Assembly: GCF_031760065.1 (NCBI RefSeq)
Contig: NZ_CP134500.1
Span: 930,001 to 994,000, forward strand
DNA length: 64,000 nucleotides
Source of the DNA: Streptomyces durocortorensis
GTDB lineage: Bacteria; Actinomycetota; Actinomycetes; Streptomycetales; Streptomycetaceae
Reading direction: 5' to 3'
How positions within the stretch are numbered: position 1 is the stretch's first letter; the number at the start of each line of letters is the position of its first letter. The position numbers and the translations under genes are program-made. This document shows, one piece after another, positions 52,711 to 56,519 of the stretch. The notes beneath the pieces were generated by a model, which was not told where the DNA came from, made no database searches, and was given only the letters and a program-made list of their open reading frames with translations.

Positions 52711-52735
52711 GGGGGGGCTTGCGGCAAGGCCCCCC
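52711..52735 (+). promoter_or_regulatory. Rifamycin-associated element (RAE)-like inverted repeat before rox
   Basis: gggggggcttgc-g-gcaaggcccccc, centred about 92 bases upstream of the rox start. It matches the inverted-repeat motif (CTTGC...GCAAG flanked by G and C runs) I know as the rifamycin-associated element in front of rifamycin-inactivating genes in actinomycetes. TATAGC at 52701-52706 directly upstream is a likely -10. Confidence 0.75.
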
Positions 52736-52815
52736 AAAGGCCGCAGAATCGTCGGCCGAAGCCCGGATACACCGGTGGCTTCCAGAAATTCGACGTCGAC
52801 AGGGGCGTAGCAGTG

Positions 52816-54270
52816 ATGATCGACGCAGGCGTAGACGCAGACGCAGACGTAATCGTCGTCGGAGGTGGACCCACCGGGCTGATGCTGGCCTGCGAGCTGC
52901 GGCTGGCCGAAGTGCGCACGGTCGTCCTGGAGAAGCTGACCGAGCCGACCCGGGAGTCCCGGGGGCGCGGCCTGCATGTGCGCAGCGTCGAGGTGATGGA
53001 CCAGCGGGGGCTGCTGGACCGGTTCCTCGCGGTGAGCGAGACGTTCCAGGTCGGCGGGTTCTTCGGCGGCATCCAGAAGCCGTGGCCGGAGCGGCTGGAC
53101 ACCGCGCACCCGTACGGCCTGTCAACCCTCCAGCCGGTCACCGAACGGCTGCTCCGCGAGCGAGCCGTCCAGCTCGGCGCCGAGATCCGGCGCGGCTGCG
53201 AAGTGACCGGGCTGATCCAGTCCGCCGCCGACGGGGTCACCGTCGAGCTGGCGGACGGCACGCGGCTGCGCTCCCGGTACCTCGTCGGGTGCGACGGCGG
53301 CCGCAGCACCGTGCGCAGGCAGCTCGGCGTCGCCTTCCCCGGCGAACCCGCCACGGCCGAGACGCTGCTCGGCGACATGGAGATGGCCGAGGACCAGGAG
53401 ACGGTCGCCGCCGTCGTCGAGGAGGTTCGCCGGACGCACCTGCGCTTCGGCACCATCCCCAACGGGGACGGCACCTTCCGCGTCATCGTGCCCGCCGCCG
53501 AGGTGGCCGAGGACCGGGCGGCCGCACCGACCCTGGAGGAGTTCCGGCAGCGGCTGCGGGCCGTGGCGGGCACCGACTTCGGCGTCCACTCGCCCCGCTG
53601 GCTGTCCCGGTTCGGCGATGCCACCCGGCAGGCCGAGCGCTACCGGGTCGGCCGGGTGCTGCTGGCCGGGGACGCGGCCCACATCCACCCGCCGACCGGT
53701 GGGCAGGGGCTCAACCTCGGTGTGCAGGACGCGTTCAACCTCGGCTGGAAGCTGGCGGCCGAGGTCAACGGCTGGGCGCCGGACGGGCTGCTGGACAGCT
53801 ACCACGCCGAGCGGCACCCGGTGGGCGCGCGGGTGCTGGACAACACCCGGGCGCAGATGAAGCTGCTCGGCACGGACGCCGGTGCGACCGCGCTGCGGGA
53901 ACTGCTCTCGCGGCTGATGGACTTCGAGGAGGTGAACCGCTACCTGACCGGCATGGTCACCGCGGTCGACGTCCACTACGACCTGGGCGAGGGACACGAA
54001 CTCCTCGGCCGCCGCATGCGGGACCTGACACTGAAGCGGGGCCGCCTGTACGAGCTGATGCACAGGGGCCGCGGACTGCTGCTCGACCGGACCGGCGAGC
54101 TGTCGGCGGCGGGCTGGGAGGACCGGGTCGACCACGTGGTCGACCGCGCGGAGGAGCTGGACGTGCCCGCCGTGCTGCTGCGGCCCGACGGCCATGTGGC
54201 CTGGGCCGGGCAGGACCCGGCGGGGCTGCCGGACGCGCTGGCGCGGTGGTTCGGCGCACCCGCGGGCTGA
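52816..54270 (+). CDS. rox: FAD-dependent monooxygenase, Rox-type rifamycin monooxygenase
   Basis: 484 residues from ATG 52816 (GTG 52813 also possible). [18 protein letters not shown] (FAD Rossmann, about 23-40), [34 protein letters not shown], and [22 protein letters not shown]. Close in pattern to Rox enzymes that hydroxylate rifamycins, triggering ring opening. The RAE-like element upstream and helR downstream support this assignment. C-terminal thioredoxin-like domain as in class A hydroxylases ([17 protein letters not shown]). Confidence 0.88.
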
Positions 54271-54350
54271 AGCACCGCCGTGCCCGCAGAGCCGGGACAG
54301 GCCGGGGAAGGCCGCCTTGTACGTACGAACGTGAGATCGGAACTGACGAC

Positions 54351-56519
54351 GTGAAACCCCTGACCACCACCAGTGCCTTCAACCTCCCCGACCGCCTAGC
54401 CGCCAAGGCCGACCCGGCCCTGGTCGCCGACGACGAGCACCACTTCGCCGCCATCGCCCGGTGTCTGGAGGCGACGATCGCCGAGCTGTCCGAGCGCCTC
54501 GACGCCGAACGCCGGGCACCGGGCGGCGGCGGGCGTGAGGCGATGGACCGGGACGCGGAGATCCACCGGCTCAGCACCCGGCTGCGCACCCTGCGCCGCT
54601 TCGGCGTGGACCTGTGTCTCGGGCACATGGCCGCTGCGGACGGCTCCGCCCCGGTGTACGTCGGACGGCTCGGCCTGACCGACAGCACGGGCCGCCGACT
54701 GCTGATCGACTGGCGCTCCCCCGCCGCCGAACCGTTCTTCGGAGCCACCCACGCCAACCCGATGGGGCTGGCGAGCCGCCGCCGGTACCGCTGGACCGGC
54801 GGCCGGATCAGCGACTACTGGGACGAGGTGTTCACGGCGGACGCCCTGGCCGGACATGCCGCGCTCGACGACCAGTCCGCCTTCATCGCGGGCCTGGGTG
54901 ACAACCGCTCGGCCCGGATGCGCGATGTGCTCGGCACCATCCAGGCCGACCAGGACGCCATCATCCGGGCGGGCTCCCGGGGCGCTCTCGTCGTGGACGG
55001 CGGCCCGGGCACGGGGAAGACCGTCGTCGCCTTGCACCGCTCCGCGTATCTCCTCCACTCCGATCCGCGCCTCGGTCACCGCCGGGGCGGGGTGCTGTTC
55101 ATCGGCCCGTCCCGGCCCTATCTGGGGTACGTCGCCGATGTGCTCCCGAGCCTGGGAGAGGAGGGCGTCCAGACCTGCACCCTGCAAGACCTCGTCGCCG
55201 AGGGGGCCGGGGCAGGAGTCGAGACCGATCCGGAAGTGGCTCGCCTCAAGGCGTCCGCGGACCTGGTGAAGGCGATCGAGCCCGCCGTCCGGTTCTACGA
55301 GGAGCCGCCCGCCAAGGGGCTGCGGGTCGAGACGCACTGGTCCGACATCCGGCTGAGCCCAGCCGACTGGGCCTCGGCGTTCGAGGCGGCCGACCCCGGC
55401 ACTCCGCACAACGAGGCGCGCGACCGGATCTGGGACGAGCTGCTCACGATCCTCGTGGACAAGCACGACGGCGATGCCCCCGAGGAGCAGCTGCGGGCGT
55501 CCCTGCGGCAGAACCGGGAGCTGCTCGCGGCCTTCGACCGGGCCTGGCCCCTGATCGAGGCGGCGGATCTCGTCGGGGACCTGTGGTCGGTGCCCGCGTA
55601 TCTGCGTAAGTGCGCGCCCTGGCTGAGCCCCGAGGACGTACGGAGGTTGCAGCGGGCGAACCCGCAGGCCTGGACGGTGTCCGACCTGCCGGTCCTGGAC
55701 GCGGCACGGCAGCGGCTCGGGGACCCGGAGGCTTCGGGGCGCAGGCGTCGGCGGGCGGCGGCCGCCGCCGCGGAGCGCGAGCGGATGGCCCAGGTCATCG
55801 ACAGTCTGCTCGCCGACGAGACCCTGGCCGAGGCGGACGCGGACGGGGAGGGCGCGCTGATGATGCTGCACGGCCAGGACCTGAGGAACTCCCTGGACGA
55901 CGCGGAAGGGGCGGGCGGTATCGCGCCCGACCTGCTCGCCGGGCCGTTCGCCCACATCGTCGTGGACGAGGCGCAGGAGCTGACCGACGCCGAGTGGCAG
56001 ATGCTGCTGGCCCGCTGCCCGTCCCGGAGCTTCACGATCGTCGGGGACCGTGCACAGGCCCGGCACGGGTTCACCGAGCCGTGGCGCGAGCGGCTGGAGC
56101 GGGTCGGGCTCGACCGGATCACCCTGGCCTCCCTGAGCATCAACTACCGGACGCCGCGGGAGGTCATGGCCGAGGCCGAGCCGGTGATCCGGGCCGTGCT
56201 GCCGGATGCCAACGTGCCGGCGTCCGTCCGCGCCGGCGGCCTCCCCGTCGCCCGCGGTTCCGCCCGGGACCTGGACGCGGTCCTCGGCGCCTGGCTCGCG
56301 GAGCACGCCGAAGGGACGGCCTGTGTCATCGGCGCCCCCGCGTTCCGGGGGACGGCCCGCGTGCGGTCGCTGAGCCCGGAGCTGGCGAAGGGGCTCGAAT
56401 TCGACCTGGTCGTGCTCGTGGACCCGGAGGCGTTCGGCGCGGGAATCGAGGGGGCGGTGGACCGCTATGTCGCGATGACCCGGGCGACGCAGCGGCTGGT
56501 GGTCCTCACGAGCCCCTGA
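54351..56519 (+). CDS. helR: HelD/HelR-type RNA polymerase-recycling motor ATPase
   Basis: 722 residues, GTG start at 54351 (80 bases after rox). UvrD/Rep-like SF1 core: QADQDAIIR, Walker A GGPGTGKTVVAL (217-228), Walker B IVVDEAQELTDAEW, GDRAQARHGF, SINYRTPREVM and final MTRATQRLVVLTS. N-terminal coiled-coil region (about 30-85) is the arm that enters the RNA polymerase channel. HelR proteins displace rifamycin from RNA polymerase. Here it appears co-transcribed with rox from the RAE promoter, as no RAE lies in the 80-base gap. Confidence 0.9.
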   Translation: MKPLTTTSAFNLPDRLAAKADPALVADDEHHFAAIARCLEATIAELSERLDAERRAPGGGGREAMDRDAEIHRLSTRLRTLRRFGVDLCLGHMAAADGSAPVYVGRLGLTDSTGRRLLIDWRSPAAEPFFGATHANPMGLASRRRYRWTGGRISDYWDEVFTADALAGHAALDDQSAFIAGLGDNRSARMRDVLGTIQADQDAIIRAGSRGALVVDGGPGTGKTVVALHRSAYLLHSDPRLGHRRGGVLFIGPSRPYLGYVADVLPSLGEEGVQTCTLQDLVAEGAGAGVETDPEVARLKASADLVKAIEPAVRFYEEPPAKGLRVETHWSDIRLSPADWASAFEAADPGTPHNEARDRIWDELLTILVDKHDGDAPEEQLRASLRQNRELLAAFDRAWPLIEAADLVGDLWSVPAYLRKCAPWLSPEDVRRLQRANPQAWTVSDLPVLDAARQRLGDPEASGRRRRRAAAAAAERERMAQVIDSLLADETLAEADADGEGALMMLHGQDLRNSLDDAEGAGGIAPDLLAGPFAHIVVDEAQELTDAEWQMLLARCPSRSFTIVGDRAQARHGFTEPWRERLERVGLDRITLASLSINYRTPREVMAEAEPVIRAVLPDANVPASVRAGGLPVARGSARDLDAVLGAWLAEHAEGTACVIGAPAFRGTARVRSLSPELAKGLEFDLVVLVDPEAFGAGIEGAVDRYVAMTRATQRLVVLTSP

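Follow-up and report, generated by a model that had tools for sequence, protein, structure and literature searches.

A rox-helR gene pair behind a single RAE in Streptomyces durocortorensis: a probable rifamycin-defence operon with an exchangeable first gene

Introduction

Rox enzymes destroy rifamycins, and HelR proteins displace these antibiotics from RNA polymerase. Here we describe a locus of Streptomyces durocortorensis in which a gene of each family, rox and helR, stands behind a single copy of the palindromic element known as the RAE. The locus occupies positions 52,711 to 56,519 of a stretch of 64,000 nucleotides (assembly GCF_031760065.1, contig NZ_CP134500.1, positions 930,001 to 994,000 of the forward strand). 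We refer to this whole stretch as the window, and all coordinates count from its first letter.

The literature describes the RAE as a 19-bp palindrome whose mechanism is unsolved, and a 2026 paper calls the sensing of rifamycins by RAE genes an open matter (Discussion of PMC12802891). In S. venezuelae, according to the excerpted text of PMC10719064, rox and helR (SVEN_6029) are each RAE-linked. The protein families and the RAE are the same as in the window, but the S. venezuelae genes belong to two separate RAE hits, whereas rox and helR in the window sit together behind one. Genes for other inactivating enzymes are RAE-linked as well, namely the glycosyltransferase rgt and the phosphotransferase rph, and we find Rgt-like and RPH-like genes behind the same Streptomyces RAE module. 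The two Rgt-like proteins scored here fall under the cut-off of their model, and their activity is only predicted. A different arrangement is the helD/pps alarm of Bacillus subtilis, in which the transcript of an antisense promoter with a 19-bp spacer ends at a terminator after about 90 nt, and mutation of the antisense -10 leaves the sense promoter high and uninducible (section 45 of PMC12802891).

Results

The RAE, rox and helR of the window all have the same orientation, with a single RAE for both genes. We read them as a two-gene rifamycin-defence operon that is probably driven by one RAE promoter, and put the probability of this reading at roughly 0.8. It is supported by the single RAE, by the lack of internal promoter-like or terminator-like sites and by protein identities above the model cut-offs. 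Rox and HelR would then be made from one transcript induced by rifamycins, the former inactivating the drug and the latter ejecting it from RNA polymerase. An initial annotation of the stretch had noted an RAE-like inverted repeat here, and the palindrome (GGGGCTTGCGGCAAGGCCC) is indeed readable at 52714..52732, where the 19-mer pattern matches both strands with 1 and 2 mismatches; its arms extend to 52711-52735, so that the start given in that annotation, 52711, takes in three further G's of the arm.

The first gene, rox (52816..54270, plus strand; a GTG at 52813 is a possible alternative start), encodes a Rox-family rifamycin monooxygenase (PDB 5vqb and 5kow). The protein scores 844 bits to the NCBIfam model NF033145, rifampin monooxygenase, for which the curated equivalog cut-off is 800, and its translation contains the FAD motifs GGGPTG, CDGGRS and LAGDAAH, in agreement with the complete FAD motifs of the initial annotation. 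Could the gene rather encode a FAD hydroxylase of the biosynthetic type? Polyketide oxygenases do form the next tier of PDB matches, yet they reach 390 bits at most, far below the 747 and 706 bits to two rifampin-monooxygenase structures. The best match is the rifampin monooxygenase 5vqb (E 9.5e-224, residues 12-483 aligned) and not an unrelated hydroxylase. Together with the equivalog score, the RAE upstream and the same arrangement in two relatives, this makes a biosynthetic hydroxylase highly improbable. The N-terminus of the window's Rox carries a GACGCA-type repeat (52816-52850) that is missing from the proteins of these relatives, L004 and L182 (MIDVIV..).

After a gap of 80 nt (54271..54350), as first annotated, follows helR (54351..56519, plus strand), which starts with GTG and encodes a class II HelD/HelR-type RNA polymerase recycling ATPase of 722 aa. 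HelR scores 1266 bits to NF041254 (motor_HelR, cut-off 750) and is the only one above this cut-off among 11 matched stretches in the genome. Going by their families, the two proteins would contribute drug inactivation (Rox) and target protection (HelR). The closest solved relative of HelR is HelD (6yxu), with which the region of its primary-channel loop aligns; by count an Asp falls on D485, inside a gapped stretch. In the excerpted text of PMC11464796, D485 of Mycobacterium smegmatis HelD is a loop residue said to clash with rifampicin.

The gap between the genes contains no RAE, promoter-like or terminator-like site, and the RAE ahead of rox is the only one within 2.3 kb upstream of helR, which bears out the earlier statement that no second RAE separates the genes. 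Consensus scans over 52500-56700 gave 0 promoter-like and 0 terminator-like sites, with a shuffled mean for terminators of only 0.5; since the promoter scan was limited to spacers of 16-18 nt, RAE promoters are invisible to it too.

A wider comparison indicates that the RAE and helR are the constant parts of this unit. Among the best 80 HelR loci by identity, exactly one RAE lies within 2.3 kb upstream in 79, ahead of whichever gene comes first, and in none of these 79 does an RAE separate the first gene from helR; for the 80th (L053), only about 510 bases of upstream DNA were at hand. The slot between RAE and helR holds nothing recognised in 38 of the 80 loci, an intact rgt-like frame in 21, rgt remnants in 19 (tblastn E of 1e-3 or better without an intact frame) and rox in 1. 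The genes behind RAE modules include rox, helR, Rgt-like and RPH-like genes. Family scans covered two Rgt-like and two RPH-like examples, the latter cut by the edge of the fetched stretch. The Rgt-like proteins have their whole-length best match in the NCBI Rgt model, at 529 and 503 bits; as its cut-off is 800, "rgt" here stands for an Rgt-like gene. In two loci (L029 and L031) rgt overlaps helR by 4 bases. On a 90-row HelR tree, the presence of an intact first gene versus none requires at least 17 changes. The best explanation is that rox-helR is a clade-specific variant of an RAE-helR unit whose slot may be empty or contain rox, an rgt-like gene or the remains of one. The initial annotation had proposed an inducible two-layer defence from one promoter, and the single-RAE loci and the rgt/helR overlaps of 4 bases favour this as the best reading of the genes in the window as well. 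It is improbable, although not negligibly so, that helR is expressed mainly from a promoter of its own in the gap, the two genes being neighbours and not one inducible unit. A gap of 80 nt instead of an overlap would suit such a promoter, and consensus scans are weak evidence of absence; on the other side, no promoter-like site was found within 52500-56700, and the gap is free of an RAE, whereas an RAE directly precedes helR where the slot is empty.

The chromosomal site of the window, flanked by mfs-tetR on one side and akr-argH-argG on the other, was compared across 46 loci, which stand for 43 further genomes once three duplicate contigs, recognised by their equal length, are set aside; 40 of the 46 were drawn from the best tetR matches and not at random. 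The slot holds rox-helR in 2 of the 43 (L004, which is S. anulatus, and L182, which is genome G005), rgt-helR in 1 (L056), and helR behind a short leader in 9 and behind a longer one in 3, of which two retain rgt remnants. The remaining 28 have neither RAE nor helR at the site; in some of these akr was undetected. The Rox proteins of the window, L004 and L182 fall into a single clade (SH-aLRT 99). In the trees of the flanks and of HelR, the sister of L182 is L254, which lacks rox, and L004 is placed among genomes without rox. One gain of rox followed by at least two losses would be the simplest history. Transfer of the operon is an alternative, suggested by the lower identity of rox and helR (79-87%) compared with that of the flanks (89-97% in L004 and L182).

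In 199 genomes of the genus Streptomyces, including that of the window, rox is above cut-off in 113, helR in 124 and both in 83, a co-occurrence above chance (odds ratio 3.0, p 0.0002, without correction for kinship). An arrangement with rox directly ahead of helR is seen in 2 of the 83 genomes with both, the window and G005; the third case, L004, came from a separate search. The exact RAE core CTTGCGGCAAGRCCC is present in 150 of the 199 genomes, and a core with at most 1 mismatch lies within 420 bp upstream in 51 of 56 Rox rows examined. Two loci show clustering of Rox and the helR unit without fusion: in L078 and L183 (G016), a unit of RAE, first gene and helR lies no more than about 5 kb from a rox gene that has an RAE to itself; the two are divergent in L078, where rgt is present, and on the same strand in L183. 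A tandem pair of rox-family genes occurs at G121:C141:496800-499940, and for the one in L100 the 420 bp upstream contain no RAE core. In G039, the rox match (C6:224653-226092) and the helR match (C3:588036-590165) are each listed with one in-frame TAG.

Around the RAE we found a conserved anatomy that goes beyond the initial annotation. Within the palindrome lie two overlapping TTGCSG hexamers that resemble -35 elements, TTGCGG on the sense strand (52719..52724, plus) and TTGCCG on the antisense strand (52722..52727, minus). At 19 bp from each is a -10-like hexamer, CAGAAT for the sense direction (52744..52749, plus) and TAAGTT for the antisense direction (52697..52702, minus). Conservation was assessed in a gene-anchored set of gene-oriented sites upstream of helR or rox with at most 1 mismatch to the RAE core (139 sites, 97 of them non-redundant, window included); because these were selected by the core, their -35 hexamers are partly fixed by selection. 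The antisense TAnnnT occurs at a single offset in 95 of the 97 sites, and in 0-4 sites at the other 44 offsets. At the mirror offset the sense nAnnnT is found in 97/97, a loose pattern that reaches up to 31 at other offsets, and the stricter CAnAAT in 89/97 (0-4 elsewhere). The directions differ systematically in the first base of the -10, which is C in 95/97 sense hexamers, and never T, and T in 95/97 antisense hexamers. According to the excerpts of PMC4895711, 80.4% of the start sites in S. coelicolor have TANNNT as their -10 motif. Of 58 loci collected class-wide, 51 were kept solely for their RAE core and a CANAAT-like sense -10 (48 non-redundant), and antisense TAnnnT is present in 50 of the 51 sites (47 of the 48). 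A search of Streptomyces with the exact core supplied 30 loci, of which 27 have both -10s; L124 resembles coding sequence, L150 has the antisense hexamer TGAGTT, and L145 has neither -10 at the offset, its boxes looking one base closer to the RAE. Of the first 30 columns beyond the 19-mer, no more than 4 have the same strongly conserved base on the two sides, and -11A and -7T of the hexamers account for two of them; this favours two promoters over an extended operator.

Within the genome, the 19-mer pattern with up to 3 mismatches matches the RAE on both strands and two other places, these at 3 mismatches; the reversed control gave 8 and 2 matches, so that 3-mismatch matches are background. 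The RAE core and the sense -10 at fixed spacing have one exact match in the genome, at the window RAE, and with up to 3 mismatches the reversed control outnumbers the pattern. Two other assignments were rejected. An upstream TATAG box has no conserved -35 at 16-18 bp before it, as would suit a sense -10, and an antisense -10 read as TATANG with a 17-bp spacer fits Streptomyces, whereas TAnnnT at 19 bp fits class-wide (50/51).

Just downstream of the predicted antisense start, a terminator-like hairpin followed by a T-run is present in 60 of the 97 gene-anchored sites. The same definition gave 4/97 on the sense strand, 2/97 in each of two shifted antisense controls and 4/97 downstream. In a set of 118 sites the counts are 75 against 7, with shifted controls of 1 and 2 (antisense) and 2 and 4 (sense); that set was selected on TATA and CANA, and its -10 counts were therefore not used. 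Class-wide the signal is weaker, with 13/48 against 5 (sense) and 1, 0 and 1 (other controls). The arms covary: in the gene set they pair at 7.88 of 9 positions with their own partner and at 7.25 when swapped (best of 1000 swaps 7.46), and class-wide at 5.75 against 5.21 (best swap 5.59). As the arms covary and the T-run is mostly on the antisense side, we rejected this inverted repeat as a dimer operator. The window itself retains a degenerate hairpin at 52664..52690 (minus strand; arms 52664-52672 and 52682-52690), with 2 mismatches and without a T-run.

Upstream of the locus, a perfect 20-bp palindrome, GTGAGACATTAATGTCTCAC, at 52524-52543 overlaps the tetR start and is likely a TetR operator. 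It adjoins a DHA2-type MFS gene, for which the best model is LfrA (475 bits, under the cut-off of 825). The tetR-MFS pair was rejected as part of the operon, tetR being found in 350 of 392 genomes and the pair being present whether the slot is filled or empty. Rfam matches at E 0.2 and 0.49, far under gathering scores, were taken as chance.

Discussion

Going further than the initial annotation, the comparison shows rox-helR to be one form, rare and limited to a clade, of a broader unit, RAE-[rgt / rox / nothing]-helR. What is new here is the slot with its exchangeable content and the symmetric, promoter-like layout around the RAE. Among the papers that our literature searches listed, the original RAE and HelR papers not being among those read, we recognised none as describing rgt-helR or rox-helR pairs. 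Several points weigh against the operon nonetheless. The gap of 80 nt could hide a promoter missed by consensus scans, and the antisense hairpin of the window has decayed. With neither RAE nor helR at 28 of 43 sites, genomes can evidently do without the unit. The 80 HelR loci are no random draw, and the 2 of 83 is a lower bound, because fragmented assemblies can hide adjacent pairs split between contigs.

How the RAE might respond to rifamycins invites two explanations. In the first, which we hold tentatively and at clearly less than even odds, the RAE is not chiefly an operator. Two divergent promoters for the housekeeping sigma factor, each with a 19-bp spacer and each excluding the other, would instead have their overlapping -35 elements in it, and together they could act as a factor-free rifamycin sensor. 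The antisense promoter (TAnnnT) would fire an RNA of about 35-40 nt into the immediate terminator, and would hold down the weaker sense promoter (CAnAAT) by occupancy, not by collision. Rifampicin, which would arrest the polymerase after 2-3 nt, would upset this competition and the defence operon would fire. Promoter activity, competition and the switching step are all inferred from the sequence pattern. The switching step is the weakest, given that a drug-arrested polymerase might block both directions instead of leaving the antisense side. Further points speak against two promoters: the window's own terminator is decayed, the terminator is not universal, no antisense hairpin being seen at the mycobacteria-like HelR loci L185 and L189, and the outer GGG/CCC arms of the RAE, nearly invariant in the 97 sites, are unexplained by the -35 hexamers. 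Moreover, a sense P1 start is reported for M. smegmatis about 20 bp upstream of the RAE (section 9 of PMC10719064), which does not readily fit the antisense start that we predict about 23 nt upstream.

The second explanation, whose chances we judge to be just short of even, is that the RAE is the operator of a rifamycin-responsive transcription factor, with the antisense element arising from by-product divergent transcription and the terminator insulating the upstream neighbour. The RAE is so treated in the Discussion of PMC12802891 and in section 9 of PMC10719064, the near-invariant outer arms would suit an operator, and the bidirectional promoters of Escherichia coli are, in the excerpts of PMC12825309, mostly too weak to compete at basal level. 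Nevertheless, the scarcity of shared bases in the outer columns (4/30) is promoter-like rather than typical of an extended operator, and terminators on the antisense side far outnumber those in the controls.

The pair of divergent promoters would have two partial precedents. With the B. subtilis helD/pps alarm, as excerpted from PMC12802891, it has a HelD gene in common and, as predicted from sequence, would also have in common a 19-bp spacer in the antisense promoter and a short antisense RNA that stops at a terminator. The promoters there are convergent and experimentally proven, whereas those at the RAE would be divergent with overlapping -35s. We therefore do not file the RAE as a member of the B. 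subtilis-type two-promoter alarm; rather, we infer a B. subtilis-like logic in another geometry. The E. coli bidirectional promoters likewise consist of pseudo-symmetric DNA on which one polymerase orientation excludes the other, but those in the excerpted PMC12825309 are mostly too weak, and the symmetry of the RAE is tied to one drug-response family, with a terminator following the antisense start in many relatives.

The content of the slot varies, which suggests that HelR, with its target protection, is the constant partner and that the inactivating enzyme is replaced or lost time and again; of the two layers of defence, this shows which one is retained. If the divergent promoters were real, RNA polymerase and DNA would suffice to sense rifamycins at the RAE, and actinobacteria would have their own equivalent of the B. 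subtilis alarm. The symmetric promoter anatomy makes rifamycin sensing by the RAE directly testable through a change outside the palindrome.

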